A stretch of DNA of 64,000 nt from Gammaproteobacteria bacterium (GCA_009840545.1 VXNM01000008.1:378339-442338); one strand, 5' to 3'. Numbered from the stretch's first letter, positions 6,653 to 57,811 are shown. Notes: generated from the sequence alone by a model not told the origin. Translations and numbers: made by a program.

Positions 6653-6661
6653 GGAATAGTT

Positions 6662-9770: not shown

Positions 9771-9782
9771 ATTTGGCACGAA

Positions 9783-10620: not shown

Positions 10621-10656
10621 TTCATCCAATTGCGATATACACATCGAAATTAATTC

Positions 10657-11922: not shown

Positions 11923-13019
11923 TGTCGCTGTCTCCCAGAATTGTTCAACGTCTTGAGGAAATCTCTGATCGTCACGCAGAGATTGAGTCCTTGCTAGGCG
12001 ACCCAGAAGTGGTTTCCAATCACGAGAGTTTTTCGAGTCTCTCGCGAGAGTACTCCGAGCTTCAACCAGTCGTAACTGCATACGAACGCATTAGAACGAT
12101 TGAAGATGAAATAGAGGAAGCCGAGGAGCTTCTTCAAGAGGAAGACGAAGACTTACGGACGCTTGCTCGAGAGACGATTGAAGAACTTCGTCCGTCGCTG
12201 AACGATGCTCTTGAAGGGATTGAATTATTGCTGGTGCCGTCCGACCCCGACGACAAAGCCAACGTTTTCTTAGAAATACGCGCGGGCACAGGTGGTGAGG
12301 AAGCCGCGCTCTTTGTCGCCGACTTGGCAAAGATGTACGAGAAGTACGCGACGCTAAAAGGCTGGAATGCGAAACTCGTCTCCAAGAGACCAGCAAGCCA
12401 AGGAGGATTGAAAGAGGCGGTTTTCAGGATCTCAGGTCAAGATGTATTTGCGAAGTTGAAGTTCGAGGCCGGCACACATCGCGTGCAACGAATTCCGCAA
12501 ACCGAGTCGCAAGGACGCATTCACACGTCGGCATGCACCGTCGCAATTCTGCCCGAGATCGAAGAACTCACCGAAGTCGAGCTGAATGTTGCTGACCTGC
12601 GAATCGATACATTTCGCGCATCCGGTGCAGGTGGGCAACACGTGAACAAGACCGACTCCGCAGTTCGAATAACTCATATGCCCTCCGGGACCGTAGCCGA
12701 GTGCCAGGAAGAGCGTTCACAGCATCAAAACAAAGACCGAGCCATGGCTTTGCTAAAGTCCAAGATCCTCAGCGAACAACGCCGAGCTCAAGAGAAAGAG
12801 CGAACAGAAGATCGAAAGCTCCAAGTAGGCTCTGGCGATAGGTCCGAGAGAATTAGAACCTACAACTTTCCTCAGGGAAGACTTACAGATCACAGAGTTC
12901 AACTCACGCTGTACAAGCTGGATGAAGTCATGGAAGGCGCGCTTGATCAGGTGGTTGAGCCATTGGTCAAAGAACGACAAGCCGATCTACTGCGGGGCAT
13001 GAAGGATGAAGTGGATTGA
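11922..13019 (+). CDS. prfA: Peptide chain release factor 1
   Basis: Terminates translation at UAA and UAG. 365 residues. The GGQ peptidyl-hydrolysis loop is visible as RASGAGGQHVNKTDSAVRITH (about residues 228-248, written here with the central GGQ at about 233). The codon-recognition domain precedes it, and the C-terminal basic segment ERIRTYNFPQGRLTDHRV follows. It lies in the hemA-prfA-prmC operon with overlapping starts and stops, so its GGQ-modifying methyltransferase is made from the same transcript. Confidence 0.97.
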   Translation: MSLSPRIVQRLEEISDRHAEIESLLGDPEVVSNHESFSSLSREYSELQPVVTAYERIRTIEDEIEEAEELLQEEDEDLRTLARETIEELRPSLNDALEGIELLLVPSDPDDKANVFLEIRAGTGGEEAALFVADLAKMYEKYATLKGWNAKLVSKRPASQGGLKEAVFRISGQDVFAKLKFEAGTHRVQRIPQTESQGRIHTSACTVAILPEIEELTEVELNVADLRIDTFRASGAGGQHVNKTDSAVRITHMPSGTVAECQEERSQHQNKDRAMALLKSKILSEQRRAQEKERTEDRKLQVGSGDRSERIRTYNFPQGRLTDHRVQLTLYKLDEVMEGALDQVVEPLVKERQADLLRGMKDEVD

Positions 13020-13894
13020 TTCCCGCTGTAGGAGGTGCAAAACACCCCGTGCTAGGCAATTCGACTGAAGACCAAACGCACCGTCTCAAAAACCTAGGAG
13101 ATTGCTTCGCTTGGGCTCGAAGCAAAATCGGTAGAAGAGATTCAGAACGATTGCTCGAGTATGCGTTGGGCACAACAACCTCTCAGCTCTACACAAACCC
13201 GTCATTGGATGTCACTACGGAATCAGCCAAATACCTCTCTGGACTGGTTTCCCGGCGAAGTAGTGGCGAACCTGTTGAGTACATCATTGAAGAGTGCTAC
13301 TTTTGGACTCAAAAGCTGCAGATTACTTCCGATGTACTCATACCGAGACCAGAGACCGAAATTCTTGTCGAGTCTGCGCTCCAGTTCCTGAAGGACGGGG
13401 ATCGTGTACTGGATCTTGGCACGGGTTCAGGCGCAATTGCACTAGCGTTAAGCTCTGAGTTGAATCTGAAAGTGGTAGCTACAGACATTGACTTGAACGC
13501 CCTAAATTTGAGCCGAGAAAACATTGATCAACTCGGTTTTGACATTGAGCTGGTTCAGTCGGATTGGTATTCCTCGATCAAAGGAGTATTTGACGTGATA
13601 GTCTCGAATCCACCTTACGTAGCGATTGGCGACCCTTTACTCACAAAGAGCGGATTGCGCTACGAACCGCTTGTCGCATTGGCCAGCGACAAAAATGGGC
13701 TCGAAGCACTCGAGACTGTTATTTTCGGATCCACAAAGTACCTTGAAGATGGTGGTAGCTTGCTGGTCGAGCACGGATTCAATCAAAGAGACCAAGTGAT
13801 GAGCATGTTCAACACAGCCGGATTCCTCAACATAAGCTGTCGAAACGACTTCAGCGATGTTCCACGAGTGGTTTTTGGACAGAAAGGTGAATGA
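13016..13894 (+). CDS. prmC: Release factor glutamine methyltransferase PrmC
   Basis: SAM-dependent enzyme that methylates the Gln of the GGQ motif in RF1 and RF2. Diagnostic sites: VLDLGTGSGAIALALSSE (SAM loop, about residues 130-147), the acidic VATDID, and the substrate-binding VSNPPYVA (NPPY, about 200). The N-terminal helical domain has GEPVEYIIEE (about 80-90) and the Arg of LIPRPETEILVE. The open frame starts with TTG at 13016, giving a TTGA overlap with the prfA stop; a start further in would remain possible since residues 1-20 look unstructured. Confidence 0.96.
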   Translation: MIPAVGGAKHPVLGNSTEDQTHRLKNLGDCFAWARSKIGRRDSERLLEYALGTTTSQLYTNPSLDVTTESAKYLSGLVSRRSSGEPVEYIIEECYFWTQKLQITSDVLIPRPETEILVESALQFLKDGDRVLDLGTGSGAIALALSSELNLKVVATDIDLNALNLSRENIDQLGFDIELVQSDWYSSIKGVFDVIVSNPPYVAIGDPLLTKSGLRYEPLVALASDKNGLEALETVIFGSTKYLEDGGSLLVEHGFNQRDQVMSMFNTAGFLNISCRNDFSDVPRVVFGQKGE

Positions 13895-42251: not shown

Positions 42252-43997
42252 ATGAGGAAACCCTTTTTTGACACACGAATAGTCAAATCAACACTTTGGA
42301 CCGTGCTATGCGTGGGTCGAATCATTGCCATCATCGCTTTTGCTGGAACTACAGGAATTGGCATGGCAGCTGAGAACTCAGAGTCGGTGGAGGGATTCTT
42401 GAAGACTTACGTCGGCAAAGAAGACCCCTCGTATGAATGGAGTATTAAGCAAGATACCAAGACGGAAAAAATTCGCTTTGTTCTAGTTGAGCTCACGTCT
42501 CAAACTTGGCTGACTCCCAAGGAAGTCAATCGGACCGATTGGCGACATTGGCTTGAGATCTACATTCCAAACGATCGGGAGTCCGATGTTCCATTGCTCT
42601 TCATATCTGGTGGGAGCAATGCGGGAGAGGAACCACAACGCTCAAACTCAGTTGGACAGCAGATTGCACTGGTTAGCAAGACGATTGTGGCTCAACTATC
42701 GCAAGTACCAAACCAACCGCTTGTTTTCCTCGGTGACGGAGTTGAACGGAGTGAGGACAACCTCATCTCCTTCTCATGGATTCAATACTTGAACTCAGGC
42801 CGCCTCGAATGGTTGGCTCAAGCTGCAATGGTCAAGAGCGCATCTCGCGCCATGGACGCAGTCATTGAGGTTCTTGCTACAGACGACATGGGGCCAATTG
42901 ACGTAGGCAAATTTGTCGTGGCTGGGGGCTCGAAACGCGGCTGGACCACATGGCTAACAGCCGTTGTTGATGCCCGGGTCGTTGCCATCGTGCCAGTAGT
43001 CTTCGATGTCTTAAATATGCGTAAGTCGATGAAGCATCACTTTGGCGCATACGGCTTTTGGTCGGTTTCGCTTGGTGACTACGTTAACCAAGGAATATTG
43101 CGCCAGTTCGATTCTGAAAAGCTGAGTCCGATTCTTCAAGTCGTCGATCCCTTTCACTATCTAAGTGAATTAGACATTCCCAAGTTTGTCGTGAATGCCA
43201 CAGGGGATGAATTCTTTCTGCTCGATTCATCTCAGTTTTATTGGAATGAAATGCTAAATCCAAAATACCTTCGCTATGTTCCAAATGCGGATCATGGGTT
43301 GAGTGGGTCAGATGCACTTCAGAGCGTGGCGTCGTTTGTCTCTCTCGCGGCGCAGAATAAGCCGATCCCATCCATTGAATGGAATCGTACCAGTAGTAAT
43401 CGGATCGAGATTCGAACCTCCATCGAACCGATTCAAACTATGGTCTGGGAGGCACACAGCCCGGTGAGTAGGGACTTTCGCCTTCTGCGAGGACCAGATG
43501 GGTCGCCGCGCGGTCCAGTGTTCTCAAGTCGGCCCTTGACCTCGCACTCTGAAGATCTGCTGTCTTTTGAGGCGTCTGTGGACATGCCACACTCGGGTTG
43601 GACTGCTTGGTTTGTGGAATTTGCGTTTGACGTCGGACTTGATGTGCCTCTCAAGATGTCCACGGATGTACAAGTCCTACCAATCGACTTGCCTTTTGCA
43701 GCAGAAGACTTCACCCAAGACACCTTCCTCACCATCCATTGTCTAAGGAATCACGATGACGACCAGACACCCGATAATGTACTAGAGTTTATCGAAGAGA
43801 CAACCGGTTCGCCCAAGATCAACCATAAGTTCTTCTCCAATCGAGACTACTACACGTGGAAACAATCCGGAGACTTGCTTGTCGAAGGAACTGCAGTCTC
43901 AAGATTCTTGAACTTCATGGGCTACGAAGAATGCCACTATCAGCTTGAGTCCGGTGAGGGTCCTACGATGCCACCGCTCCTCAAAGTGGAGGATTAG
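42252..43997 (+). CDS. PhoPQ-activated pathogenicity-related (PqaA-type) protein
   Basis: 581-residue exported alpha/beta-hydrolase-like protein of the PhoPQ_related family. A signal-anchor segment lies at about residues 15-38. The nucleophile elbow is FVVAGGSKRGWTTWLTA (Ser in G-x-S-x-x-G, about residue 227), with VVDARVVAIVPVVFDVLNM after it and candidate catalytic Asp in VVNATGDEFFLLDSS and His in VPNADHGLSG. The family is named from a PhoP-regulated Salmonella gene; molecular function is not settled. ATG 42252 follows an AGAGG site, and 60 bases separate it from the envelope cluster that begins at 44058. Confidence 0.85.
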   Translation: MRKPFFDTRIVKSTLWTVLCVGRIIAIIAFAGTTGIGMAAENSESVEGFLKTYVGKEDPSYEWSIKQDTKTEKIRFVLVELTSQTWLTPKEVNRTDWRHWLEIYIPNDRESDVPLLFISGGSNAGEEPQRSNSVGQQIALVSKTIVAQLSQVPNQPLVFLGDGVERSEDNLISFSWIQYLNSGRLEWLAQAAMVKSASRAMDAVIEVLATDDMGPIDVGKFVVAGGSKRGWTTWLTAVVDARVVAIVPVVFDVLNMRKSMKHHFGAYGFWSVSLGDYVNQGILRQFDSEKLSPILQVVDPFHYLSELDIPKFVVNATGDEFFLLDSSQFYWNEMLNPKYLRYVPNADHGLSGSDALQSVASFVSLAAQNKPIPSIEWNRTSSNRIEIRTSIEPIQTMVWEAHSPVSRDFRLLRGPDGSPRGPVFSSRPLTSHSEDLLSFEASVDMPHSGWTAWFVEFAFDVGLDVPLKMSTDVQVLPIDLPFAAEDFTQDTFLTIHCLRNHDDDQTPDNVLEFIEETTGSPKINHKFFSNRDYYTWKQSGDLLVEGTAVSRFLNFMGYEECHYQLESGEGPTMPPLLKVED

Positions 43998-44057: not shown

Positions 44058-44819
44058 ATGAGTTTGTTGGAGAAATTCGAAACATACGTTACAGCAACGC
44101 TTCGAATTGTTCTGATGGCGGTGGGAACACTCGCAATTCTGGCAATGGCTGTTCTGTTCACTTGGACTGTATGGACTGTCATAGCTCCTAACAACGTCGA
44201 CCACAGAGAATTCTTGACTGCACCGTCGTATGCGGAACTCCGTAGAGACTTGCTTCCAACCTACGACACAACACCTTCGTCACAATCAAGCAACGGGTCT
44301 CAAGGAGTCAGTTCTCCCTACCGAGACCGACTCTCTGCGGTGGTATCGACTTTAGACAGACAGTACAACATCGCAGGTCGGCAAGAGAAGAAATTTAGTG
44401 ATACATTCTCTGCTATCCACCTCGAACGAGAGCTCATCGAGCAAGGTCTCGCCAAGAATTTCAACCTGCAAGAAGTCGCCGATGACTACTTGGAAGCGCT
44501 CCAATCTGTAGCAACAGAGATAGCAGACGATCAGGTCCTCTCGCGCATCGCCGAAACCAGCTCTAGGACATCAATCATTATCGATGCCATAAACAAGTTC
44601 CATGACGAGTACTTGCTCCGACTTCAAGATTCATTCGACTTCGCATCTATACTCAGTGCCGAGCAAGACACCGCCGAGACATTCACGCTCCAAATACTGC
44701 TGTGGAGTTTCGTTGCTTGCTTTGCGGCATTCTTGATGGCATCTTTGGTACTTCTAGCGTTTCGGATTGAGAGTCACCTGCGCAAACGTAACGAGAGTCT
44801 TGAAGTGAGTGTGCAGTGA
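44058..44819 (+). CDS. Two-helix membrane protein, first gene of the envelope cluster
   Basis: 253 residues. Membrane helix near 16-42 (IVLMAVGTLAILAMAVLFTW), a hydrophilic, mostly helical extracytoplasmic region of about 165 residues (45-210), and a second helix near 215-238 (LLWSFVACFAAFLMASLVLL), then a short charged tail. The topology resembles periplasmic-sensor or scaffold proteins; no domain is recognised. It overlaps the next gene by four bases (GTGA) and opens a tight nine-gene run. Nothing in the sequence gives an enzymatic role. Confidence 0.75.
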   Translation: MSLLEKFETYVTATLRIVLMAVGTLAILAMAVLFTWTVWTVIAPNNVDHREFLTAPSYAELRRDLLPTYDTTPSSQSSNGSQGVSSPYRDRLSAVVSTLDRQYNIAGRQEKKFSDTFSAIHLERELIEQGLAKNFNLQEVADDYLEALQSVATEIADDQVLSRIAETSSRTSIIIDAINKFHDEYLLRLQDSFDFASILSAEQDTAETFTLQILLWSFVACFAAFLMASLVLLAFRIESHLRKRNESLEVSVQ

Positions 44820-45547
44820 GTCAGTCTGGCCCATCTCTAGCATGTTTCGTCTTGATTTCGATCGGTTTGGTGCTAGCACAGTCGTCTGAGGCCCAAGACG
44901 AAGAACAAGATTCAGTGAAAGATCCTTGTGCCGAACTCCTGGCCATCGACACCTCAGAAATCTCAGATGACGAAGAGTTGGCGTCCAAGCAATTGGAACA
45001 ATCGATCAACCTATTGGATGAATGTCTCAACTCCCTTCTATTGGGTGTTGGAGGAACAGGGGGGACTGGTGTAGTCGACAATTTAGACCACAGCGCATCG
45101 CCGTTGTTGCTGCACCCGCAAGGAGAAGAGAATCCAAGTGCGGCGCAAAACCCAGGCACACTGTCCGGCAGTTTGACCGAATTAGATAATTTTCTGGACA
45201 GCGTGGAGATTGAGTTGGATCCGTTGAATGCAAATACACGTTCAACTAATGGCAGACAGATCGATTCCGAACCGCTGTCGGAGCTTTCGGAACTAAACAC
45301 ACAGAAGACTGACCCAGGAGAACCGCAAGGAGACCTGGAGGGCGGTGAGGAACTCAAGAGCGACGACAAGGTCGATAATGAGTCTCAGCATGCTGAGAAG
45401 AACCGGCAACCTGCCGACCCCAAAGACGAGGACGCAGTACTCAAACAAATCCGAGAAGCCGCCGAGAGAGAGACAGACCCCGACACTAAAGAGGCATTGT
45501 GGGACCAATACTATGACTATCTGGATATCAAGAAACGCAGCAAGTAA
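44816..45547 (+). CDS. Exported acidic low-complexity protein
   Basis: 243 residues from GTG 44816. A signal peptide is visible (ACFVLISIGLVLAQSSEAQD, cleavage near residue 26). The mature part is very acidic: D/E-rich stretches, a Gly-rich patch (LLGVGGTGGTGVVDN) and a charged C-terminus (LKQIREAAERETDPDTKEAL) likely to form a helix. Two cysteines near residues 38 and 70 could pair. No family recognised. Second gene of the cluster; the next starts eight bases after its stop. Confidence 0.7.
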   Translation: MSQSGPSLACFVLISIGLVLAQSSEAQDEEQDSVKDPCAELLAIDTSEISDDEELASKQLEQSINLLDECLNSLLLGVGGTGGTGVVDNLDHSASPLLLHPQGEENPSAAQNPGTLSGSLTELDNFLDSVEIELDPLNANTRSTNGRQIDSEPLSELSELNTQKTDPGEPQGDLEGGEELKSDDKVDNESQHAEKNRQPADPKDEDAVLKQIREAAERETDPDTKEALWDQYYDYLDIKKRSK

Positions 45548-45554
45548 CAAGTGC

Positions 45555-46883
45555 ATGAGTAGATTCGCAATCACATCAATGGTCTGCTTGGCGACTCTTA
45601 TTGCACTAACAGGTTCCGTCGTAGCCCAAGGTGTAAAAGTGGGTCCTCAGCCCGTGCCGCAACAGCCTGCGAATGTCGATGTGACGGAAACGAAGGGTTT
45701 CCTAAAGACTCGCATGAACATTCCATCTCTGCGTCTTGCAATACCAGTACTGGATCCTGGAATTCCAGCGAGTTCCAAGGAACAACACGACAAAGGCATC
45801 TGGCCTGAGCTAAGACGAAGCGAGTCTGTGTGGGCGGCATTCAAACTGAAGGAATGGATGCATCGCTACAACCAGTTCGACGAAATTATTGTTTGCGCAG
45901 ATAGTTCGGTGAGTGCTGACCTCTATCTGATCGGAAAAATCCTTAAGTCCGATGGCGAGACAATGTCCATCGAGTATTCAGTCATTGATGCGACCGGTTC
46001 CGTTTGGTTTGCCGACGAAACCGATACATATCGTGTGGAAATAGGCTGGCACCAACGTAACGAAGGAAGCGACAAAGATCCTTTTGATCCGCTCTACAAC
46101 AAAATTGCAGAAACGGTATATGAAGCACTCAAGGATCGTGGAAAGGCGCACGTAAAGAACTTAGAGAAATCGTCGCGCAACAATCAGAATCAAGGTCACT
46201 CGCTATCGGACTTGGAACGAATCGAACTCACACGAGACCTCGCTTTTGCAAGGTTTCTCTCACCCGAAGAATTTGGCGACTCAATCGTCGCATCGAATGG
46301 CCGCTATCAGATTCAATACATACCTTCTCGAGGCGGACCCGACTGGACTCGCATCGAGAGTATTCAAACTAGAGAAGATGCATTCCTTGAGGTAGTCGAA
46401 AAGTACTACTCACAATTCGTAGAGGATATCGGTGACGAATACCATCAGTGGCAGCTAGACTCTTTTCCCATTGCAAGAGAAATCCGAATTGCTAAGCGCA
46501 ATCGAGCTATCCAAGGGGTCGCGGGTACTGTCTTGTTGGTTGCATCTGTCGCAGCAGCAGCCGATGGTGCGGCAGACGACGGGGATAGTTCCGCCGAGCT
46601 CGGCACGAAAGTGGGTGCCGCCATAGGAGGTTCTCTAATCGTCTCAAGCTTCATGCAAAACGCACGTCGAAAAGCGGCAGTCGATGAAATCAACGAGCTT
46701 GGAGGCAGTCTGCACAACTCATTGAAGCCAACTCGGGTCGACTTGAACGGAAAAGTAGTCACCCTTTCGGGCACGGTACACGATCAATTTACCCAATGGC
46801 GAGCCATGCTGACTGAGATGTACGAGAATTCCAGTGATGCGGATGCCATAACGATTCTTGACGACGAAGCTGCGTCCGAGTAG
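45555..46883 (+). CDS. Exported protein of the envelope cluster, BON-like C-terminus
   Basis: 442 residues from ATG 45555 (the frame is open from 45345 but that part overlaps the previous gene). A signal peptide ends near GSVVAQG. Residues 60-200 look like a beta-rich domain (FDEIIVCADSSVSADLYLIG, EYSVIDATGSVWFADETDTY). Residues 300-390 contain a hydrophobic/Gly-Ala segment (VAGTVLLVASVAAAADGAAD) that could insert in a membrane. The C-terminus (VDLNGKVVTLSGTVHDQFTQ, then WRAMLTEMYE) resembles a BON-type domain, which binds membranes or other periplasmic proteins. This is a suggestion from pattern only. Confidence 0.65.
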   Translation: MSRFAITSMVCLATLIALTGSVVAQGVKVGPQPVPQQPANVDVTETKGFLKTRMNIPSLRLAIPVLDPGIPASSKEQHDKGIWPELRRSESVWAAFKLKEWMHRYNQFDEIIVCADSSVSADLYLIGKILKSDGETMSIEYSVIDATGSVWFADETDTYRVEIGWHQRNEGSDKDPFDPLYNKIAETVYEALKDRGKAHVKNLEKSSRNNQNQGHSLSDLERIELTRDLAFARFLSPEEFGDSIVASNGRYQIQYIPSRGGPDWTRIESIQTREDAFLEVVEKYYSQFVEDIGDEYHQWQLDSFPIAREIRIAKRNRAIQGVAGTVLLVASVAAAADGAADDGDSSAELGTKVGAAIGGSLIVSSFMQNARRKAAVDEINELGGSLHNSLKPTRVDLNGKVVTLSGTVHDQFTQWRAMLTEMYENSSDADAITILDDEAASE

Positions 46884-46887
46884 CTCG

Positions 46888-48240
46888 ATGATCAGTCGTA
46901 ATTTTGATCGTTTTTTCAAGTTCTCCATCGGTTGTGTCTTTTTCCTCTTCTCAACCCAGACTCTTGTCTCTCAAGAAATCGAATTTCTCGACTGTGAAGG
47001 CGAATGGGCAGACTCTCAGCTTTGTAAAGAACGAGAAGAAGCGTTTGAGTTCAAAGCCCGCGTCGACTTGATACTCGAAGATCTGCCTAAACTCGAAAAT
47101 CCGCCTTGGGATACCGCTCAACACAAGACTGCGCTGTCCGACTACGAAAAGGCAATGGACTACTACAACGATGCGTACTTTGGAGATGCAACCACGGTGT
47201 TTGAGTCTGTGCTCGACTCGCTATTGAGTCTGAAATCAGAGTTTGAGGAATCTACTGCGAAAACCGAGGAACTCGCATTTTCACTGCTTGAAGAGGACAG
47301 ATACAGCGAGGCCATTCCCCATCTCCAAAATCTTGAACTGTGGATGCCCTCGTCTTCACGAGTTTTGGAAGGAGTCACTCACGCCCGTCATGGCATTGAG
47401 CTAGAAAAACTGGTTACCAGAATGGAGGAGCTCATCGAGAACCACGCCTACGAGGATGTCGAAGCCGAGCTAGCGGACTTTCCTGCGGGATACTGGCAAC
47501 AAAGAGTCAGCGCACTTCGATTAAGCGTGTCGAACTTTCGAAACGAACAATCGTTCAACGCTCTCATGTCTCGGGGACTTGAAGACCTAGATGCCAGCCG
47601 ATGGCAATCGGCTCATGACTCTTTTGAAGCAGCTTTGAAATTATCTCCCCACTCAGTTGTGGCCAAAGAATCTCTCGATCAGGCTCGTGCCCACATCACG
47701 AAAACGAATCTAGCGACACTACGGGAAACACTCTCTAATCAGGAAAGTGCGGAGCAATGGGAGGAAATGCTTCAAACGTTAGCTGCGATTGAACAGTGGT
47801 CTGCGAGTGAAGAGACTGAAGCATCAAAGTTGAAGGTAAAGCACTTATTGAGCACCGAAACCCAGCTTACGGAAGCAATTTCCAAAGCATCAGTACCCAT
47901 GAGCAAACAAGTGAGATCTGAGATACAAGCGCTTATTGCATCCACTGAGGAACTGGATTCCCATGATCGAATCAATCTACAGAGAAGCCGCCTGAAAGAG
48001 GAATTTGACCGTAATACGAAACGGGTGTCGATCACCGTGATTTCAGATAGTGAAACCAATGTAATGATTCGTCCAGGACAGGCACTTGGAAAGTTCTCCA
48101 AGATGGTACTTAGTGTCTATCCTGGTTCTTACGACTTCATTGGTCGGCGCAAGGGCTACCACGAGACTCGCGAATCCATCACCATCGAGCCGGATTCAAA
48201 CGAGGTCGAGATACGAATAGTTTGCGATGTCAGATTCTAG
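46888..48240 (+). CDS. Exported helical-repeat (TPR-like) protein with PEGA-like C-terminus
   Basis: 450 residues from ATG 46888, five bases after the previous stop. N-terminal signal segment (FSIGCVFFLFSTQTLVSQ), then about 330 residues of helical repeats; LLEEDRYSEAIPHLQNLELW and GLEDLDASRWQSAHDSFEAA are TPR-like units. The last 75 residues switch to beta (VSITVISDSETNVMIRPGQA, PGSYDFIGRRKGYHETRESI), the form of a PEGA domain. Two Cys lie just after the signal peptide. Overlaps the PEGA/FGE gene by 14 bases. Probably a periplasmic scaffold. Confidence 0.7.
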   Translation: MISRNFDRFFKFSIGCVFFLFSTQTLVSQEIEFLDCEGEWADSQLCKEREEAFEFKARVDLILEDLPKLENPPWDTAQHKTALSDYEKAMDYYNDAYFGDATTVFESVLDSLLSLKSEFEESTAKTEELAFSLLEEDRYSEAIPHLQNLELWMPSSSRVLEGVTHARHGIELEKLVTRMEELIENHAYEDVEAELADFPAGYWQQRVSALRLSVSNFRNEQSFNALMSRGLEDLDASRWQSAHDSFEAALKLSPHSVVAKESLDQARAHITKTNLATLRETLSNQESAEQWEEMLQTLAAIEQWSASEETEASKLKVKHLLSTETQLTEAISKASVPMSKQVRSEIQALIASTEELDSHDRINLQRSRLKEEFDRNTKRVSITVISDSETNVMIRPGQALGKFSKMVLSVYPGSYDFIGRRKGYHETRESITIEPDSNEVEIRIVCDVRF

Positions 48241-50251
48241 TTTCGGTTCAGACACCGATCCTCTCGACCTACGTCGCATTCAAAAAGAGAGACGCGCGAG
48301 AATAGTCACCGCGATTGTCGTCGTCACTCTCTTAGTCTCTATACCGCTCCTCCTCTTCAGGACGACAGCATTCAAGCTGGAAATAGCCCCAGATAAAGCG
48401 AACGAGACCGTTCGTATAACCACGGACGAGGGAATGGCTCTAGCAGTCGGCAAGCGAATTCTTTTGTTTGGGCAAACTACAAAACTGAGAATCGAAAGTG
48501 TTGGATTTCAGCCCTACCAAACGCGGGTTGACCGAACAACCCAAGATCGTGTCCTTTCAATAATGATGGACCCACTTCCTGGCTCGGTAACGATACACGT
48601 ACAAGCTTCCTCAGATGTATCGGTAGAAGTTCAAGGCACTGAAGTCTCGGGTACGCCGCCCCTCACGACAGAACTGGCCAGAGGAGTCTATGTGGTTTCT
48701 GTGACCGGCAACCAAATTGTTCCACTACAGCACGAGTTTCGAGTGGAAGGGTATGGTGTAACCCAGGATGTACAACTTGTAACTGAAGAAAGTACAGCAT
48801 CACTGACGGTTCAGGTCGTGCCAAACACCGCAGCCATTGAAATCAATGGTTCGCCAATCGGACATGGTGTCTACAACGGTCGAATCGCCGTCGGAACGCA
48901 TGAGATTTCGTTGGTTGCTGAAAACTACCTGCCGCACCATTTGCAAGTGTCCGTGGGCATCAACGAGCAAGTTGATCTTGAAGTCGTAGAGCTACGCCCC
49001 CTACCCGCTAGTCTCGACGTAACAAGCAATCCTAGTGATGCATCAATCCTCCTCGACGGCACCTTCGTTGGAAGCACACCGTCGAAAGTGACCATTGCAG
49101 CGAACAAGGAAGTGGAGATCAAGATTCGAAAACCGAACTACTTAACACAAACTACAAGCATTGAATTGCGTCCAGGAGAGAGAAGTACACGCTCATTCAA
49201 TCTCGAGTCGGTTGAGATTCAAGCCGAGGTTAACTCTTCACCCAAAGCCGTAGTCTGGGTAAACGGCGAACGCAAAGGATCTACACCATCCAAGTTGGTC
49301 GTCAATGTAGGAGATGTTGTCAAAGTGACCCGTGAGGGGTTTGCGTCTCAGAGCGTCGAGATAGAGGCCGCGGGTCCCGAAAGACGATCTCTGGACTTTC
49401 AGCTAGTTGATGAATTGCGGGACAAGTACGACAAGTCTCCCGAACTACTCGTAATCAACGATTCCATTACTCTCCGAAAGATTCCCCCACTGCAGGTCAG
49501 TACACGTGTGCCGCCCGATATTGCGGGTGGCAGCGATCCGAGTACTCGGGAGTTTGAATTGACGCGAGCGTTCTATTTAGGTACACATGAGATTCGCCGC
49601 AAGGAATACGCGAAGTTTGTTACATCACTCAAAGTCGAAGCGTCGAACGAAGACTTGCCCATAAGCGAGATCTCGTGGGAGGAAGCTGCTCGTTTCTGCA
49701 ATTGGCTAAGTGCCCAGCAGAAACTCGAACCTGTATATGTCTTCGAGTCCAATGGTGGAGTAACAATTAACTCTGCTGCTCTCGGATTCAGGTTGCCAAC
49801 GGAAGCTGAATGGGAAGCTGCTGCTCAGTTCGACTTATACCGCGAGACTGTGATTGGTGCTTATCCCTGGGGTAGCGCTGATGCACCTAGAACAGGATCG
49901 GGTAACTACTCTGGCCGGGAATCTCGTCCAGAAATGTATCCCTTTTTGGACGTGCACTTGGACAATCATGTAGAAGTCGCTCCGGTGGGTTCATATCGTC
50001 AGAACGCAAACGGCTTTCACGATCTTGGCGGTAACGTTGCAGAGTGGGTGCAAGACCGCTACGAAAGCAAGTCGCAAGGGTTGAATCAAAAACTGAAGGA
50101 CCCGCTTGGACCTCAGTCCGGTTTGGATCGCATGGTCAAGGGAGCAGACTTTCGTACCCATGACTTGAAAGAAATGTACATAAACTCAAGAAGAGTAGTG
50201 GGGCTCAAAGACGAGACAGTCGGATTTCGAGTGGCAAAGTGGCTATGGTAA
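48227..50251 (+). CDS. PEGA-repeat protein fused to a formylglycine-generating-enzyme-like (FGE-sulfatase) domain
   Basis: 674 residues. A cytoplasmic N-tail, a single membrane helix (about 26-45), then four or so PEGA-type beta modules up to residue 400; LDVTSNPSDASILLDGTFVG and VNSSPKAVVWVNGERKGSTP are typical units. The C-terminal 240 residues are an FGE-sulfatase fold: FYLGTHEIRRKEYAKFVTSL, EISWEEAARFCNWLSAQQKL, FRLPTEAEWEAAAQ, GFHDLGGNVAEWVQDRY and the terminal VGFRVAKW. The cysteine pair needed by true formylglycine-generating enzymes is not visible near the C-terminus, so a binding or structural role is likely. Central gene of the cluster. Confidence 0.85.
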   Translation: MSDSSFGSDTDPLDLRRIQKERRARIVTAIVVVTLLVSIPLLLFRTTAFKLEIAPDKANETVRITTDEGMALAVGKRILLFGQTTKLRIESVGFQPYQTRVDRTTQDRVLSIMMDPLPGSVTIHVQASSDVSVEVQGTEVSGTPPLTTELARGVYVVSVTGNQIVPLQHEFRVEGYGVTQDVQLVTEESTASLTVQVVPNTAAIEINGSPIGHGVYNGRIAVGTHEISLVAENYLPHHLQVSVGINEQVDLEVVELRPLPASLDVTSNPSDASILLDGTFVGSTPSKVTIAANKEVEIKIRKPNYLTQTTSIELRPGERSTRSFNLESVEIQAEVNSSPKAVVWVNGERKGSTPSKLVVNVGDVVKVTREGFASQSVEIEAAGPERRSLDFQLVDELRDKYDKSPELLVINDSITLRKIPPLQVSTRVPPDIAGGSDPSTREFELTRAFYLGTHEIRRKEYAKFVTSLKVEASNEDLPISEISWEEAARFCNWLSAQQKLEPVYVFESNGGVTINSAALGFRLPTEAEWEAAAQFDLYRETVIGAYPWGSADAPRTGSGNYSGRESRPEMYPFLDVHLDNHVEVAPVGSYRQNANGFHDLGGNVAEWVQDRYESKSQGLNQKLKDPLGPQSGLDRMVKGADFRTHDLKEMYINSRRVVGLKDETVGFRVAKWLW

Positions 50252-50550
50252 GTAGACTCAGGATCATCTTCGCGACCTGCATTGTTCTCTTCTGTATAAC
50301 AGTGTTTGGTGAAACCGAGCCAAAAGAAAACGAACCGGTTAGCGAAGAAACGTCAGTAGCTGAAGAGAAACAATCCGATTCTGAGAGTCAACCCCAGGAC
50401 GGCGAAGAAAGTGATTCGCAGATCGACGAGCAACCGGCAGTGAACGACACAGAAGGTACAGATTCAGAGCCTAACGAAACTTACACAAGACTACCTGTTC
50501 AGACGCGAATCAATCCAAATCAAAACGTTGCCCTTCCGCAAGACATTTGA
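50239..50550 (+). CDS. Small exported acidic protein
   Basis: 103 residues. A signal peptide (IIFATCIVLFCITVFGET) is followed by a disordered, strongly acidic region of E, D, S, Q and P residues and a short basic/aromatic end (YTRLPVQTRINPNQNVALPQ). It overlaps the PEGA/FGE gene by 13 bases and the proton-channel gene by four (ATGA). No family recognised. Its end could be a docking tail. Confidence 0.6.
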   Translation: MAMVSRLRIIFATCIVLFCITVFGETEPKENEPVSEETSVAEEKQSDSESQPQDGEESDSQIDEQPAVNDTEGTDSEPNETYTRLPVQTRINPNQNVALPQDI

Positions 50551-51446
50551 CATTTTCTATGGCCTCAACAACATCGCCTCTAACACCACAAAAAGGACTC
50601 AAGAGCTTTGTTGCAAAGTATGGTCTTGCTGTCGATCTGATCGGACTGCTTCTGAGCATTGTGGTTATACACACGCTCTATGTGATCCTCATTGAACCCG
50701 CGGCTGCCAATGCGCTAGCAGTCGCTGACAGTACGGGAACCGTTCCAGAACGCACATTCGCAATTATTTTCAAAGACTTAGAACAGGAATTGTGCCTGAT
50801 TCTTACGCTTTGGTGTATCTGGTTGTGGTTCTTTCGCTACCGACTGTTTCAAAGCGATGGCTATTTGCTCGAACTTGACATACTCCGTCTAGATCGTCTT
50901 GATGATGAGACTCTTCGATCTGGAAAGTCAATCTTGGCCTTCGTCGATGAAAGAATTCAGCACCTGCAATCTGAGGTTAGTGGAACGCAACTCGTAAATG
51001 CTCTCGATCTCGCAGTTCAGAGACTGCGGCTCAATCAAAGTTTTCACGAAGCAAACGAAGTGGCCACTGAAGCCTGCGACCTCCACTTGGAACTTCTCAA
51101 TTCGAGACTCTCCATATCTAAGTACATCTTGTGGGCTATTCCATCCGTGGGCTTTCTTGGTACGGTACGAGGCATCAGCGAAGCTTTGACGCAAGCACAT
51201 GAAGCTATGCAAGGGGACATATCGGGAATCGGTGCAAGTCTAGGAGTGGCCTTCAATTCCACTTATGTAGCATTGTTTTTGAGTCTTATTTTGATGTTGA
51301 TCTCGAACACGTTGCAGGGTCGAGAAGAGAGACTCGTGGCGCGTTTCAAGCACTTCATAGCCACTAGTTTTATACCTGTCTTGAGCTCTCGTTTGACTGA
51401 AGAAACGGCAATTCAGGCAGACGCGGAAGAAGACGCGATTGAGTAA
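50547..51446 (+). CDS. MotA/TolQ/ExbB-family proton channel protein
   Basis: 299-residue inner-membrane protein. Helices near 27-52 and 80-100, then a cytoplasmic region of about 95 residues, and two conserved helices at about 195-220 (YILWAIPSVGFLGTVRGISE) and 232-258 (SLGVAFNSTYVALFLSLILM). The P-S-V-G-F-L-G-T-V-R-G-I signature is that of TolQ/ExbB/MotA subunits, which form the proton path with a single-helix partner. No ExbD/TolR gene follows; instead two single-helix vWA proteins do, which may take that role. Overlaps neighbours by four and eight bases. Confidence 0.88.
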   Translation: MTFSMASTTSPLTPQKGLKSFVAKYGLAVDLIGLLLSIVVIHTLYVILIEPAAANALAVADSTGTVPERTFAIIFKDLEQELCLILTLWCIWLWFFRYRLFQSDGYLLELDILRLDRLDDETLRSGKSILAFVDERIQHLQSEVSGTQLVNALDLAVQRLRLNQSFHEANEVATEACDLHLELLNSRLSISKYILWAIPSVGFLGTVRGISEALTQAHEAMQGDISGIGASLGVAFNSTYVALFLSLILMLISNTLQGREERLVARFKHFIATSFIPVLSSRLTEETAIQADAEEDAIE

Positions 51447-52566
51447 GCAAATCCGTCGCGATGATGCGGTCGGCTTCTCTCTTTCTTTCCTCGATTTGCT
51501 TAGTTGTGGCCTCGGAGCTGCGATTCTCCTCTTGTTGGTTGTGAAACATGGATCCACAGATGTACCCATTAATACTGAAGCCTACGTCGCGTCACAAGCT
51601 GAACGGCTACAGAACGAACTCGATGAACGTCTTCAAGAAAAATCCGGGCTCGAAGAACAACTGGCCGCTGCCGTGGAAGAAATTGAGAGTGCCGCGGCCA
51701 ACAAGACCGCGCTAGCCACAGCACAAGATGATGTGTTAGCCGACTTACGCCGGCAGTTAGCAAATCTATCCGATGCTAGAGACAGACTTCAGTCGGCGTC
51801 TGACGAGCTTCAGGCACTGCAGGCAATCCCAGTAGAGGAACCCGAACCGAAAACGGGACCTACTGGACATCTTGGTGGTTTGTATGTTGCAGACTCCCAA
51901 GTTGTTGTGCTACTCGATCGTTCTGCGAGCATGCTTGACCGCTCATTGGTTGAAATCATTCGACTTCGGCTAACTAGCAAGCAAACACGCCAAAAGGTAG
52001 AAAAGTGGTCCACCGCACGAAAAGCAGCAGAATGGGCATTCAATAGAGTCAAAGACCAGCAGACCTTTCAGCTTCTCACCTTTAGTGATACGGTCCTTGA
52101 CATTAACGGCAATGTCGTAGCTCCTAGCAGGCAACTGTCTTGGCTAACCAAAGGAGCTGCTGGCTCGGAACTCAAAAATGTACGGACCATGTTGGACTCA
52201 GTAGACGCAAATGGACCGACAAACCTTGAAAGAGCGTTTGAAGCTATTGCCACGTTACGTCCTTCGCCGAAGCAGGTCCTTCTCATTACCGATGGTTTGC
52301 CCACTGTTCCGGAGAATGTGAGTCTTGGTCGGATTCGTGGATGCCCAAATGCTAGGACGGGGCAGGTGCCGATTCTCTCTCCGCAATGCAGAAAAAATAT
52401 TTTTGAACGATCAGTGCAAACGTTTAGGTCAAAGCTCAGAGACACAAGTATCAGTGTTGTATTGCTTCCTCTTGACGGTGACGCGCAAGCCATGTATTCA
52501 TACTGGGGTCTTACAGCTCGCTCACGAGGTCGAGTTCTCACTCCTGCCGAGGGTTGGCCATGGTGA
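51439..52566 (+). CDS. Membrane-anchored von Willebrand factor A protein 1
   Basis: 375 residues. N-terminal helix with the segment VGFSLSFLDLLSCGLGAAIL (about residues 11-30), a coiled-coil stretch (about 50-125, with LQNELDERLQEKSGLEEQLA), then a vWA domain whose MIDAS is intact: VVVLLDRSASMLD (D-x-S-x-S), the Thr in GPTNLERAFEAI and Asp in LLITDGLPTV. Such domains bind a ligand through Mg2+. It overlaps the proton-channel gene by eight bases. The membrane segment carries no clear Asp on the ExbD model, but its location suggests partnership with the channel. Confidence 0.85.
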   Translation: MSKQIRRDDAVGFSLSFLDLLSCGLGAAILLLLVVKHGSTDVPINTEAYVASQAERLQNELDERLQEKSGLEEQLAAAVEEIESAAANKTALATAQDDVLADLRRQLANLSDARDRLQSASDELQALQAIPVEEPEPKTGPTGHLGGLYVADSQVVVLLDRSASMLDRSLVEIIRLRLTSKQTRQKVEKWSTARKAAEWAFNRVKDQQTFQLLTFSDTVLDINGNVVAPSRQLSWLTKGAAGSELKNVRTMLDSVDANGPTNLERAFEAIATLRPSPKQVLLITDGLPTVPENVSLGRIRGCPNARTGQVPILSPQCRKNIFERSVQTFRSKLRDTSISVVLLPLDGDAQAMYSYWGLTARSRGRVLTPAEGWPW

Positions 52567-52594
52567 ACAACCTGATTGTCGTGGACGTGAACAA

Positions 52595-53602
52595 GTGACT
52601 CGTTCCGTTACGGAGAAAAAAGAGGATCAGACATCCGTTAGTTTCCTCGACGTCATTGCATGCGCGTTTTGCGCCATTGTGATTCTGGTTCTCATCCTTC
52701 CCATTGGGCAACAGACTCTCACGGACACGAAAGAGACTCCTAGCTCGCCTGCAGGTCGGCTTCTATTCCTCATTGACGCAACGGAGACTGAGATTACCTC
52801 GCTTCATGCGCAAATTGAGGAAACTCAAGAACTGCTGGCCGAAATCGAATCGGATTCCGCATCCATATCCGAAGCTACAAATCGAATTTCAATTGCAGTG
52901 AAGAATGCCGATTCACGGACTTCCACACTAGAAGCGCAACGTCAAGCACTCGCACAAACTCGAACGATTATTGAAACTACGCGTCCTCAAGGTCCAGACA
53001 CAGAACAGGTGGAGACTGAACTAGCGGGCATTCCCGTCGACTCTGAATACATCGCGTTTGTAATTGACACTTCGGGAAGTATGCAGTCCATTTGGCGGGA
53101 CGTTTCAAAGGAAATCGAACGATTCTGGCTTCTGTATCCACAGCTCAAGGGCTTTCAGATTATGAACGACAACGGGAATTACCTTTACAAGCGAAATAGG
53201 GGACGCTGGATTACGGATTCTCCGAGCGCAAGAAAGAGAGCTCTGACACGCATGCAGTCTTGGCTCGGATTCTCTAACAGTAGTCCCGTCGAGGGAATCG
53301 AAAAAGCAATTGACGACCTGTACCGAGAGGGAATAAAGATGGCAGTCATTGTCGTTGGAGACGACTACCAAGGGGACAGTTTTCAAACTTTTCTCGACAA
53401 AATCAACCATATAGTCAGTTCTCGTTCGGTAGGTGAGGGAGACCTAAGAATCCATGCAATGGGATTTTGGAATGAAATGACCGCACAACCCGGGCGGTTT
53501 GGCTCGTTGATGCGCGAACTCACCAACAGGTACGACGGAGCGTTCGTCGCTTTAGACTCAAAAATCAATCCATGGACCATAGGGGACTTCGTATTTCCCT
53601 GA
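52595..53602 (+). CDS. Membrane-anchored von Willebrand factor A protein 2
   Basis: 335 residues from GTG 52595; the open frame begins at 52325 inside the previous gene, but the conserved helix starts after 52595. N-terminal helix TSVSFLDVIACAFCAIVILV resembles that of the preceding protein (S-F-L-D-x(3)-C). A coiled coil follows (about residues 60-130), then a vWA domain with AFVIDTSGSMQSIW (MIDAS D-x-S-x-S) and VIVVGDDYQGDSF. The two vWA genes likely arose by duplication and diverged strongly. Last gene of the cluster; 312 bases of gap follow. Confidence 0.82.
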   Translation: MTRSVTEKKEDQTSVSFLDVIACAFCAIVILVLILPIGQQTLTDTKETPSSPAGRLLFLIDATETEITSLHAQIEETQELLAEIESDSASISEATNRISIAVKNADSRTSTLEAQRQALAQTRTIIETTRPQGPDTEQVETELAGIPVDSEYIAFVIDTSGSMQSIWRDVSKEIERFWLLYPQLKGFQIMNDNGNYLYKRNRGRWITDSPSARKRALTRMQSWLGFSNSSPVEGIEKAIDDLYREGIKMAVIVVGDDYQGDSFQTFLDKINHIVSSRSVGEGDLRIHAMGFWNEMTAQPGRFGSLMRELTNRYDGAFVALDSKINPWTIGDFVFP

Positions 53603-53950
53603 GTCTCAATCCATTTAGCGCGCCAAACGGCAACGTGATCTTATTCATGCAATGTTGGCGCATCAACGGGCTGTACAGGAGTTCTAGTCGACATTGAGTA
53701 AGTCCAACAAAAAACGTCAGTCAATGTCTAAAATGTGATTGTCGTTCTCGTGGCGTAGTTCGACGCGAATTTTCTGCAATTTGCTCTGTCATTTGGAGGC
53801 TTTGGGTTTCAATAGGCTAGTGAATACCAAGATTTGAACAGCAGCTGATCTTGCTCTTTCATAACAGCTGAACGTTCGCAAGAATCCCGATAGTGGTAGC
53901 AATATTCGGCGTACTTGCTAGATTTGTGGCTAATGATTACCCTTAGACAA
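53603..53950. other. Intergenic region of about 350 bases after the envelope cluster
   Basis: No open frame with recognisable content and no strong hairpin-plus-T terminator was seen. The region contains AT-rich stretches that may hold the promoter of the haloperoxidase-fusion gene. Confidence 0.3.
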
Positions 53951-56900
53951 ATGAGAGGCCCGAATTCGCCGTTTTGGTTGAAGCAACGATACCTTTCCAA
54001 GAATCAGTCGAGCTCGACTTGTGACTCCCAGGTACAGAGTCACACAAACCAGTGCGGGTTTCGCATTCCTTTCAAGCTAGTCTGGACACTGGCTTTTTGT
54101 TGCATCCTAATATTTCTCTCGGGCTGTGGTGGCGGCGGTGGCGGCTCTCCAGATCCCAATCAGCCCGACGATCCTGTAGACCCCGACGATCCGTCCACAC
54201 CCGACATTCCGAATCCCACTGGATTACGCTTCGTCCAGGACATTGATGCAGGCTTCACACGTAGGATTATCGGTTCGTCCGAGGCGTTCACAGATCCTGA
54301 GTTCTTTGCTGCAGGCGTCGCGGCGGGAGACTACGACCTGGATGGAGACACCGATCTGTATATCGTAGGTCGAGATTCGGATCCCAATCACCTATATCAG
54401 AACCAAGGTGACGGCACTTTCGAGGAAGTGGGTTCCTCGCTAGGAGTTGGAGTTCGCCACTGGGGAAGCGGTCCTGCGTTCGGAGATATTGACGGCGACG
54501 GCGATCTTGACCTATTTGTTGGATCGGTAGTGAACAACCCTATCTACTTGTTTGAGAATCGCCTCAATGAAGAGGAAGAGAGTTTTGTGGACATCACACC
54601 GTCATCCCTCCTGACCATTGATGCACAACATACTATTTCAGCTCTGTTCTTCGACTACGACACCGACGGATTTCTCGATCTCTTTCTGACACACTGGGGC
54701 GCAAACTGGGCACCTGGCATCGACACTGAATTCATTTGGCGCAACAATGGAGACCGAACCTTTTCCAGCGTGAGCATACAAGCTGGAGTTGCGTATTCCT
54801 CCCATGAGCGCTTCGATTGGAGTTTCACACCGAACCTAACCGATATCGATGGCGATGGATATGCGGATTTTCTATTGGCTTCTGATTTTGTGACGAGCGA
54901 AATTTATCTCTACATTGGCGACGGGAAATATGTACGGATTACTGATAGAAACGTGATCAAAGATCAGTCTGGAATGGGAGCTGCCGTGGCTGATTTTGAC
55001 AACGACGGCGATATGGATTGGTTCGTAACCTCTATCTACAACCAAGACGTCGGTTTCGGAAATAGTTTTGGAAATCGACTCTATAGAAATCTCGGCGGCG
55101 GCTTCTGGGAAGATGCAACCGACGAATCCGGAACGAAAAATGGCGACTGGGGATGGGGTGCTTGCGCTGCTGACTTCGATCAGGATGGGTTGATTGACCT
55201 AATGATGGTGAACGGTTGGGCTGAAGTTGGCAAGGATTACAACGACAGACCAATTCGATTCTGGCGGAATCTAGGTAATGGGATGGAATTCCAAGAAATG
55301 GGCGAGACGGTCGGTATGACCAACGATGGCCAAGGACGGGGGCTTGCTTGTTTTGACTCGGATGGCGACGGAGATCAGGATGTAGTAGTAGTCAATAACA
55401 GTGAGGACCACATCATCTACTACCGCAACGAAACAGATAACGAAAACAACTACTTAATAGTCGAATTGCAGGGGATCAATACAAACCGTTTTGGAGTTGG
55501 CGCACGCATCACAGCGACCACTGAGTCTGGCGACCAAATCCGCGATATTGGCGGCAGCAACAATTTTGTGTCGCACAATCCTCTGGAAGCACACTTTGGT
55601 CTCGGAACTGCGACAAGTGTCGACATTCATGTTCGATGGCCCGATCTAACTACCACCGAGCTAGAAGGTGTTGCTGTAAACCAGACTCTGTCCATACAAG
55701 CTACGGAGACTGCACTGCGTCTCACCGTAGTCCAAGGCGAGGGAAGTGGCAATTACGAGGAAGGAGATGTCATCGACGTTCGTTCCGACCCGGCAGACAA
55801 TCATTACTTCTTCTCTCACTGGAGCAGTAGTGGAGGAGGCTCATTCGGAGACGAGTACTCGGAATCAACTACCTTTACGATGCCCGCAGAATCAGTAACG
55901 ATAACCGCTCACTATATTCCCGGTGTTGGGCCCGACGACAACGTCTCCGTTGCTCGTAGATGGAATGAATTGGTGCTTCAATCCATCCGCAACGACTGGG
56001 CTCGACCTACCGTTCACGCTCGAAACTTGTTTCACACATCTGCAGCGATGTACGATGCTTGGGTTGCCTATAGTGATCTTGAGAGCACTTGGCTATTGGG
56101 AAAGAGCCAGAATGGGGTCTCATGTGCTTGGACAGATCGTATAACTAACGAAGAAGCTGATGATGTCAAGGAAATGCGCAATGAAGCCATCAGCCATGCG
56201 GTATACAACATCATCCGCCACCGATTCCACAATTCACCGCGAGCGAGTCGCATCCGAATCGATGCCGATGCTCTTATGGGATTTCTCGGCCTCGACAGAG
56301 CCAACGAATCCACAGATTGGGAGAGCGATGATCCGGCCGCAATTGGGAATCATATAGCTGGTTGTTACATAGATTTTGGAATGACAGACGGCTCCAATGA
56401 GGAAAACGACTATGCGAATCTCGCATACGAACCCGTCAATCCCGCACTGGAACCACACTTACCTGGAAATCCCAACATAGTTGACCTCAATCGATGGCAG
56501 CCGCTAGCACTTCAGACATTTGTTGACCAAGCTGGCAATCCATCGACGACCAATCAGCCGGATTTCCTATCGCCGGAATGGGGAAGTGTCTGGCCCTTCT
56601 CTCTTAAGGAGGAGGACCTAACAATAGAGGAAAGAGATGGATTTTCGTATTGGGTCTATCACGACCCCGGAGGACCACCCTTGACCGGAGATACCGATAC
56701 GGACGACGCCTACAAATGGGGGTTTTCACTTGTAGCCACTTGGTCTTCGCACTTGGACCCCGCTGATGGCGTGATGTGGGACATCTCTCCCGAGACATTG
56801 GGGAACATCCAATCCTATCCCGATAGTTCCGACTACGACAGCTACAACGTCTTCTTTGATCGCCTAGCTGGAGGAGATCCCAGCCAAGGATACGAAACGA

Positions 56901-57811
56901 ATCCAGTCACGGGAGAACCCTATGAAGCTCAAATTGTTCCTCGGGGCGACTACACCCGGGTGCTTGCGGAGTTTTGGGCTGACGGACCGGATTCTGAAAC
57001 ACCTCCCGGGCATTGGTTCACAATTCTCAATACCGCCGTAAACGACCATCCACAATTGGATCGTCGGCTCAGCGGTATTGGACCCGTGCTCGACGATCTT
57101 GAGTGGGACATCAAAGCTTACTTCGCCTTAGGCGGCACTATGCATGATGTTGCAATCGTTGCTTGGGGCTTGAAGGGTTGGTACGACTATATTCGCCCAG
57201 TCTCAGCTATCCGTGCTATGGCAGACCTTGGGCAGAGTTCCGAGCCAGATGGTACGAATTACAACGTCGGAGGCATCCCACTCATCGAGGACTACATTGA
57301 GCTGGTTGCAGAAGGTGACGAGTTGGCCGGAGAGGAAAACGAACATGTTGACAAAATCAAGGTGTTAGCGTGGCGTGGTCCGGACTATATCGAAGATCCT
57401 GCTGAAGATGTTGCTGGAGTTGGATGGATTCTGGCGGAAAACTGGTGGCCCTACCAACGTCCCACCTTCGTAACTCCTCCATTTGCTGGTTTCGTTTCCG
57501 GTCACTCTACGTACTCCCGGGCGGCGGCGGAAGTCCTCACCGCATTCACAGGATCGGAGTATTTTCCTGGAGGTATGAGCGGATTTGAGATCACCGCAAA
57601 CGAGTTCTTGGTTTTTGAACAAGGTCCTACTGTGGATATGACTCTACAATGGGCAAAGTACTACGACGCTTCCGATCAGTGTAGTTTGTCGCGGATCTGG
57701 GGAGGAATACATCCACCGGCTGACGACATTCCTGGTCGACTCATCGGCATCGTCGTGGGAAAGAATGCGTTTGAACACGCGACCCTTTACTTTAACGGTC
57801 AAGTAGACTAA
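53951..57811 (+). CDS. Lipoprotein fusion: FG-GAP/VCBS propeller, ASPIC/UnbV domain, bacterial repeat and vanadium-dependent haloperoxidase-type domain
   Basis: About 1290 residues. A lipobox (LIFLSGC, Cys codon 54125-54127) is followed by a Gly run and an acidic Pro linker. Then come FG-GAP/VCBS repeats with calcium loops such as GDYDLDGDTDLY, GDIDGDGDLDLF and DSDGDGDQDVVVV (54270-55440), and an ASPIC/UnbV module (FGVGARITATTESGDQIRDI, 55440-55710). An InlB-type repeat (55710-55920) precedes a helical acid-phosphatase/haloperoxidase domain (55935-57811). The vanadate/phosphate site is complete: K-x6-R-P (Lys 57173-57175, Arg 57194-57196), S-G-H (57497-57505) and S-R-x5-H (57689-57712) with D four residues on. 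The start is uncertain: ATG 53951 gives a long N-region before the signal, and the frame opens at 53915. Confidence 0.85.
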   Translation: MRGPNSPFWLKQRYLSKNQSSSTCDSQVQSHTNQCGFRIPFKLVWTLAFCCILIFLSGCGGGGGGSPDPNQPDDPVDPDDPSTPDIPNPTGLRFVQDIDAGFTRRIIGSSEAFTDPEFFAAGVAAGDYDLDGDTDLYIVGRDSDPNHLYQNQGDGTFEEVGSSLGVGVRHWGSGPAFGDIDGDGDLDLFVGSVVNNPIYLFENRLNEEEESFVDITPSSLLTIDAQHTISALFFDYDTDGFLDLFLTHWGANWAPGIDTEFIWRNNGDRTFSSVSIQAGVAYSSHERFDWSFTPNLTDIDGDGYADFLLASDFVTSEIYLYIGDGKYVRITDRNVIKDQSGMGAAVADFDNDGDMDWFVTSIYNQDVGFGNSFGNRLYRNLGGGFWEDATDESGTKNGDWGWGACAADFDQDGLIDLMMVNGWAEVGKDYNDRPIRFWRNLGNGMEFQEMGETVGMTNDGQGRGLACFDSDGDGDQDVVVVNNSEDHIIYYRNETDNENNYLIVELQGINTNRFGVGARITATTESGDQIRDIGGSNNFVSHNPLEAHFGLGTATSVDIHVRWPDLTTTELEGVAVNQTLSIQATETALRLTVVQGEGSGNYEEGDVIDVRSDPADNHYFFSHWSSSGGGSFGDEYSESTTFTMPAESVTITAHYIPGVGPDDNVSVARRWNELVLQSIRNDWARPTVHARNLFHTSAAMYDAWVAYSDLESTWLLGKSQNGVSCAWTDRITNEEADDVKEMRNEAISHAVYNIIRHRFHNSPRASRIRIDADALMGFLGLDRANESTDWESDDPAAIGNHIAGCYIDFGMTDGSNEENDYANLAYEPVNPALEPHLPGNPNIVDLNRWQPLALQTFVDQAGNPSTTNQPDFLSPEWGSVWPFSLKEEDLTIEERDGFSYWVYHDPGGPPLTGDTDTDDAYKWGFSLVATWSSHLDPADGVMWDISPETLGNIQSYPDSSDYDSYNVFFDRLAGGDPSQGYETNPVTGEPYEAQIVPRGDYTRVLAEFWADGPDSETPPGHWFTILNTAVNDHPQLDRRLSGIGPVLDDLEWDIKAYFALGGTMHDVAIVAWGLKGWYDYIRPVSAIRAMADLGQSSEPDGTNYNVGGIPLIEDYIELVAEGDELAGEENEHVDKIKVLAWRGPDYIEDPAEDVAGVGWILAENWWPYQRPTFVTPPFAGFVSGHSTYSRAAAEVLTAFTGSEYFPGGMSGFEITANEFLVFEQGPTVDMTLQWAKYYDASDQCSLSRIWGGIHPPADDIPGRLIGIVVGKNAFEHATLYFNGQVD

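Follow-up and report, generated by a model that had tools for sequence, protein, structure and literature searches.

The stretch of DNA analysed here, called the window, comprises 64,000 nucleotides from a Gammaproteobacteria bacterium (GCA_009840545.1 VXNM01000008.1:378339-442338). Between positions 44058 and 53602 it carries a cluster of nine genes, A to I, which encodes one version of a widespread, unnamed envelope machine, probably powered by the proton gradient and probably reaching across both membranes. All nine open reading frames (ORFs) were verified on the same strand and, with the best starts, are separated by overlaps of 4-14 bases or gaps of 4-28 bases; the packed, co-directional gene set described in an earlier reading of the sequence (hereafter the original prediction) is thus real. 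The genes are listed below, together with the features that define them.

44058..44819, + strand: gene A, protein with two transmembrane helices (hydropathy segments 17-35 and 217-235) and a loop of ~180 residues, restricted to the lineage of the window
44816..45547, + strand: gene B, acidic low-complexity exported protein with the C-terminal motif QIREAAxxETDPxxKExLW (from alignments)
45555..46883, + strand: gene C, exported protein with a FlgT/PelC/CsgG-like domain, a hydrophobic hairpin and a small C-terminal alpha/beta part (predicted in an AlphaFold2 model)
46888..48240, + strand: gene D, exported tetratricopeptide repeat (TPR) protein (TPR_2, 1.1e-05), conserved in order and position
48227..50251, + strand: gene E, protein with an N-terminal transmembrane helix, PEGA repeats and a C-terminal FGE-like domain without catalytic cysteines (Pfam, hydropathy, alignment)
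50245..50550, + strand: gene F, small acidic exported or signal-anchored protein with the end LPQDI-COOH (tail codons 50533-50547)
50547..51446, + strand: gene G, TolQ/ExbB-type channel subunit with pore residues Thr206 (51162-51164) and Thr239 (51261-51263) (PF01618, HMMER)
51439..52566, + strand: gene H, von Willebrand factor A (vWA) protein 1, with an ExbD-like transpore helix, Asp19 (51493-51495), a coiled region and a vWA domain with residues of the metal-ion-dependent adhesion site (MIDAS)
52595..53602, + strand: gene I, vWA protein 2, with a transpore helix, Asp19 (52649-52651), a 76-residue helix and a vWA fold with MIDAS residues (AlphaFold2 model)

The domains named in the original prediction were recovered by Pfam for G (MotA_ExbB), E (PEGA and FGE), H (vWA) and D (TPR), and by a structural model for I (vWA). 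No Pfam family matches were obtained for A, B, C and F.

Proton-driven motors of 5:2 stoichiometry power flagella, TonB import, the Tol-Pal system, gliding and type IX secretion, and G, H and I probably encode a further motor of this type. G matches the MotA_ExbB family (PF01618) with an E-value of 9.7e-15, and its Thr206 and Thr239 align to Thr145 and Thr178 of E. coli TolQ (HMMER; residue numbers counted from the alignment), both pore threonines being conserved in 40 of 40 relatives. At their N-termini, H and I carry an ExbD-like SFLD helix, the Asp of which is invariant (23 of 23 ungapped rows for H and 52 of 52 rows for I). The vWA domain of H is detected by Pfam (VWA_2, 3.8e-06); that of I is marginal by sequence (0.03) and is a clear vWA fold in the AlphaFold model of the protein (predicted local distance difference test score, pLDDT, 80.7; VIA-align Z 16.9, root-mean-square deviation 3.0 over 166 residues). 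Neither H nor I shows variation among relatives at the DxSxS motif of the vWA metal site or at the Asp downstream of it. No TolR/ExbD/MotB-type partner is encoded in the cluster, as originally noted, and a scan of the window's own genome for ExbD (PF02472) found none near the cluster, all six ExbD genes lying elsewhere. Because the threonines of TolQ are kept, the helix Asp of H and I is invariant and ExbD is missing nearby, the sequence evidence favours vWA proteins as stand-ins for the ExbD-type partner of the motor, in agreement with what had been proposed at the outset. It is very unlikely that H and I are instead side-bound force transducers of the TonB/TolA kind, acting on a distinct ExbBD motor, and not the axle of a G pentamer. 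A vWA family of side-bound topology does occur beside tolQR genes, according to the searchable text of PMC12204202, but H and I are, by eye, devoid of its SHLS motif and have the SFLD helix with an invariant Asp, like ExbD, and tolR and exbD are absent from the cluster.

The arrangement of the genes is conserved well beyond the window. A close match to G was listed in 16 genomes of the same genus besides the window's own, and in larger regions obtained from 15 of these the order A-I is intact in 9, with B-I lacking A in the other 6. A scan for gene I across ~85,000 species genomes yielded at least 571 confirmed relatives among at least 591 pattern matches; the loci named here are the best 80 of these confirmed relatives. 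The order B-C-D-E-F-G-(X)-H-I, where X is an additional gene described below, recurs in most complete loci, from Gammaproteobacteria, Alphaproteobacteria (Rhodospirillaceae), one deltaproteobacterial genome and one Kiritimatiellia genome. Because these loci had been chosen by similarity to I, an independent class-wide survey of 274 evenly drawn genomes was run, in which 20 genomes carried I and 19 carried C; of the 21 carriers of either gene, 18 held both (hypergeometric P = 5e-25, treating the genomes as independent, although they are related). The cluster is therefore not a chance grouping, and the recurrence of its homologues together in other genomes, on which the original prediction had set its case, is borne out. 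Of 398 genomes sampled across the phylum, 16 carried I, 13 of these from one family. Many carriers are marine Gammaproteobacteria, and Agaribacter marinus and Pseudohongiella are examples of carriers that can be cultured. No plasmid copies were found in PLSDB by tblastn with the I protein of a paralogous cluster as query, and viral contigs gave a single partial match, to H as query.

This distribution also bears on a possible role in anti-phage defence, an option left open by the original prediction. An anti-phage system related to Zorya is extremely unlikely. Zorya does contain a channel of the MotA/ExbB type, and G weakly matches ZorA in PADLOC (0.0019), but this is the sole match and not a convincing one: none of the nine proteins matches ZorB, ZorC, ZorD or ZorE, the cluster encodes no nuclease or helicase and, unlike patchy defence islands, it is kept in all 16 of the same-genus genomes mentioned above. 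A role in defence is not supported.

Genes C, D and E encode candidates for the scaffold and the outer-membrane end of the machine. The predicted structure of C (pLDDT 82.8) contains a domain, at model residues 46-204, that aligns with FlgT (VIA-align Z 11.6, root-mean-square deviation 3.6, 132 aligned) and PelC (Z 11.3, 2.3, 112 aligned), and the top Foldseek matches of the model are TolB proteins (best E-value 9.4e-4). Sequence identity to FlgT, PelC, CsgG and the TolB N-domain is below 15%, and no solved relatives of C were found by sequence. A hydrophobic segment follows the domain in 44 of 49 relatives. Several proteins of the FlgT, PelC, CsgG and TolB-N types reside at the outer membrane, and some form rings. 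E shows strong Pfam matches to PEGA (8.4e-24) and FGE-sulfatase (4.8e-32), with a transmembrane helix at residues 26-44. No conserved cysteines occupy the FGE catalytic columns in 27 relatives of E, and alignment to bacterial FGE agrees; an active FGE enzyme was rejected, both catalytic cysteines being missing. The PEGA/FGE-like and TPR-like parts of the original prediction thus stand as domain matches, with two refinements: the FGE-like domain lacks its catalytic cysteines, and C has a FlgT/PelC/CsgG-type domain.

The best NCBIfam match of E is to GldK/PorK (5.7e-21), and PorK, from the ring of the type IX motor, shares the cysteine-less FGE fold, which it uses as a structural hub (PMC12421860). 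These likenesses, together with the putative lipoproteins and M48 peptidase encoded downstream in related loci, point to a type IX-like motor for secretion or gliding, in which E would be a PorK/GldK-type ring subunit, G with H and I would replace GldL and GldM, and surface proteins would be exported or moved. Such a motor is nevertheless considered unlikely. E scores 75 bits against the 350-bit GldK cutoff and has an N-terminal transmembrane helix, not a lipobox; GldM and GldN were not found among the nine proteins; and the tail of F, as described next, does not behave as a common sorting signal.

Gene F is so small that gene callers can overlook it. A short ORF between E and G, ending in a hydrophobic residue followed by Pro-x-Asp-Ile, is present in 87 of 87 loci, and its tail is [FL]PxDI in 86 of them and IPxDI in one; this motif was chosen after the first loci had been seen. 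Among 46,978 other stop-terminated segments of the loci, no unrelated match to the tail was found, the two matches obtained being F tails of loci in which G had been assigned too long a reading frame. In the window's own genome, the plausible proteins with an F-type tail are two F genes only, and a common sorting signal was rejected for this genome, as no other plausible protein bears the tail. In Alphaproteobacteria and Alteromonadales, F is shorter, with only about 13 residues besides a signal-like segment. The near invariance of the tail across loci suggests a strongly constrained interaction, and what the original prediction had counted among its acidic proteins is, in the case of F, better described as a small protein that is conserved and hardly varies at its C-terminus.

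A second, divergent cluster in the same genome (locus L040, G000:C5:992000-1010000, positions 479-13800) has the order T-B-C-D-E-F-G-X-H-I-Y-Z. Relative to the window it adds a TPR-TonB_C protein, an Hsp70/FHA-like protein X and two putative lipoprotein genes. X shows weak similarity to Hsp70 chaperones, with weak FHA matches in its C-terminal stretch. In the midpoint-rooted tree of G, H and I, an X-bearing clade that includes this cluster is set apart from the loci lacking X, which comprise an alphaproteobacterial/Alteromonadales group besides the lineage of the window; the Alteromonadales relatives (L075 and L093) are placed with the sister group of the window. In X-type loci the putative lipoproteins Y and Z come after I, and 42 loci have an M48 peptidase gene after Y-Z, on the same strand (e.g. 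L131:3150-4703). It is the only flanking gene that is both recurrent and adjacent, the others reflecting local synteny. The putative lipoproteins and the peptidase fit work at the outer membrane.

The presence of X, a cytoplasmic protein beside the channel in the other clade, hints at signalling, and the intact MIDAS residues would suggest ligand binding. Both observations favour a sensing or regulatory complex in which the proton channel acts as a gate and the vWA heads sense a ligand in the periplasm, with no mechanical work. This explanation is quite unlikely, however, given that X is absent from the window cluster and from the related alphaproteobacterial/Alteromonadales clade, and that no variation is seen at the pore and axle positions characteristic of force-generating motors.

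Several observations concern the remaining genes and the surroundings of these clusters. Among the loci compared, gene A occurs in window-type loci only. The motif of B is matched, as a regular expression, in 46 of 74 B proteins, and the C-terminal stretch of D is PEGA-like as judged by eye. Upstream of A lies the following candidate first gene of the transcription unit:

42252..43997, + strand: PhoPQ_related (PqaA-like) exported protein (PF10142, E-value 5.6e-121)

This gene ends 60 bases upstream of A in the window. Of the 14 matching loci, 13 have it on the same strand 17-60 bases 5' of A, and in the other it is 1336 bases away; several of the 14 are the same genome from two collections. 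Since it adjoins A and is syntenic in the window lineage, the transcription unit may start before 44058. Consensus matches to sigma-70-type promoters were fewer than in shuffled sequences and are uninformative. Downstream of the cluster, positions 53915-57811 of the window encode a large FG-GAP/UnbV_ASPIC protein, the C-terminal part of which resembles vanadium chloroperoxidase. A third MotA/ExbB-type channel of the same genome (locus L041, G000:C5:615000-634000, positions 5839-10697) is encoded close to a double-FGE protein and to two proteins whose N-termini contain hydrophobic segments. Near two of the motor clusters there are TPR proteins that carry a TonB domain at the C-terminus (L040:479-1810 and L041:2817-4043).

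Taken together, the nine genes are best explained by a proton-powered trans-envelope force machine, with G as the motor, H and I as the axle, and C, D, E and F as further parts. By analogy with TolQ, G would form a pentamer in the inner membrane, and the N-terminal helices of H and I would pair as a heterodimeric axle within its pore, giving a 5:2 assembly that may rotate. Proton uptake and release at Asp19 of H and I, beside the ring of Thr206 and Thr239, is predicted from homology. The long helices of H and I would carry the vWA heads, with their intact metal-site residues, in place of the periplasmic domain of ExbD. A periplasmic scaffold could be provided by E, comprising a membrane anchor, PEGA repeats and an enzymatically dead FGE-like hub, together with the TPR protein D, and C may constitute the outer-membrane end through its FlgT/PelC/CsgG-type domain. 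The Pro-x-Asp-Ile C-terminus of F would dock on one component of the machine. The likeliest sites are the vWA metal site, which needs an acidic ligand, and the FGE groove, which binds extended peptides in true FGEs.

A probability of roughly two in three (0.68) is assigned to a force machine of this kind. Several points count against it. In profile searches of the PDB, the similarity of G to TolQ is weak (E-value 0.004-0.014), next to a firm Pfam match. A lipobox-like motif, detected by a simple regular expression in 30 of 49 relatives of C, is absent from C of the window and from the other 19 relatives, and the placement of C at the outer membrane therefore rests on fold analogy. The structure predictions concern single chains only. 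Finally, similarity to I was the criterion by which the 80 named loci were selected, and conservation among them is conditional on I. A more elaborate formulation is put forward tentatively, with somewhat less than even odds: that the cluster represents a widespread machine, hitherto unrecognised, with eight or more conserved parts (B-I). In this version the proton-driven pentamer would have a vWA heterodimer for its axle, C would make up the part at the outer membrane, and F would be a docking peptide, the invariant Pro-x-Asp-Ile end of which couples motor and scaffold as a ligand of the metal site or the groove. No experimental function for the cluster was found; one guess is that it maintains the outer membrane or else moves or exports some surface component. 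With its defined gene set and obvious residues for mutation, a motor whose axle terminates in vWA heads resembling those of integrins makes the purpose of the machine directly testable.

Among known systems, Tol-Pal and Ton (TolQR, ExbBD) share with the cluster the channel family, the pore threonines and the axle Asp, whereas the cluster has no ExbD/TolR, TolA/TonB, TolB or Pal. Zorya ZorAB has the same type of channel, but its other components have no matches here. GldKLMN/PorKLMN of type IX secretion likewise combine a proton motor with an FGE-like protein lacking catalytic cysteines; in contrast, E has an N-terminal transmembrane helix and PEGA repeats and falls below the GldK cutoff, vWA proteins stand in place of GldM, and GldN was not found among the cluster genes. 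The domain of C has the fold of FlgT, PelC, CsgG and the TolB N-domain, to which C adds a hydrophobic hairpin. Literature searches for a system of this make-up under an established name yielded a single source, in which a TolQ-like protein and a vWA pair with a transpore helix, without TolR/ExbD, have been predicted, with AlphaFold 3 models that place the vWA helices inside the pentamer (Mol Biol Evol 2025, PMC12204202, Fig. 4c-d, as far as its text could be searched). The window cluster shares with that family a TolQ-like gene, two different vWA proteins, an ExbD-like helix with Asp and the absence of tolR/exbD, and membership is judged by these shared features. The family, which has an Idiomarina seed, is described there in Proteobacteria and relatives of Verrucomicrobia. 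The original statement that no described system has this composition was thus only partly right, because the motor core had already been predicted there; that text covers the core only and does not describe B, C, D, E or F, so the wider conserved gene set and the tail of F appear to be undescribed in the searchable text. Relative to that text, the additions made here seem to be the predicted fold of C, the identification of E as a PEGA protein with a cysteine-less FGE-like domain, and the C-terminal tail of F.

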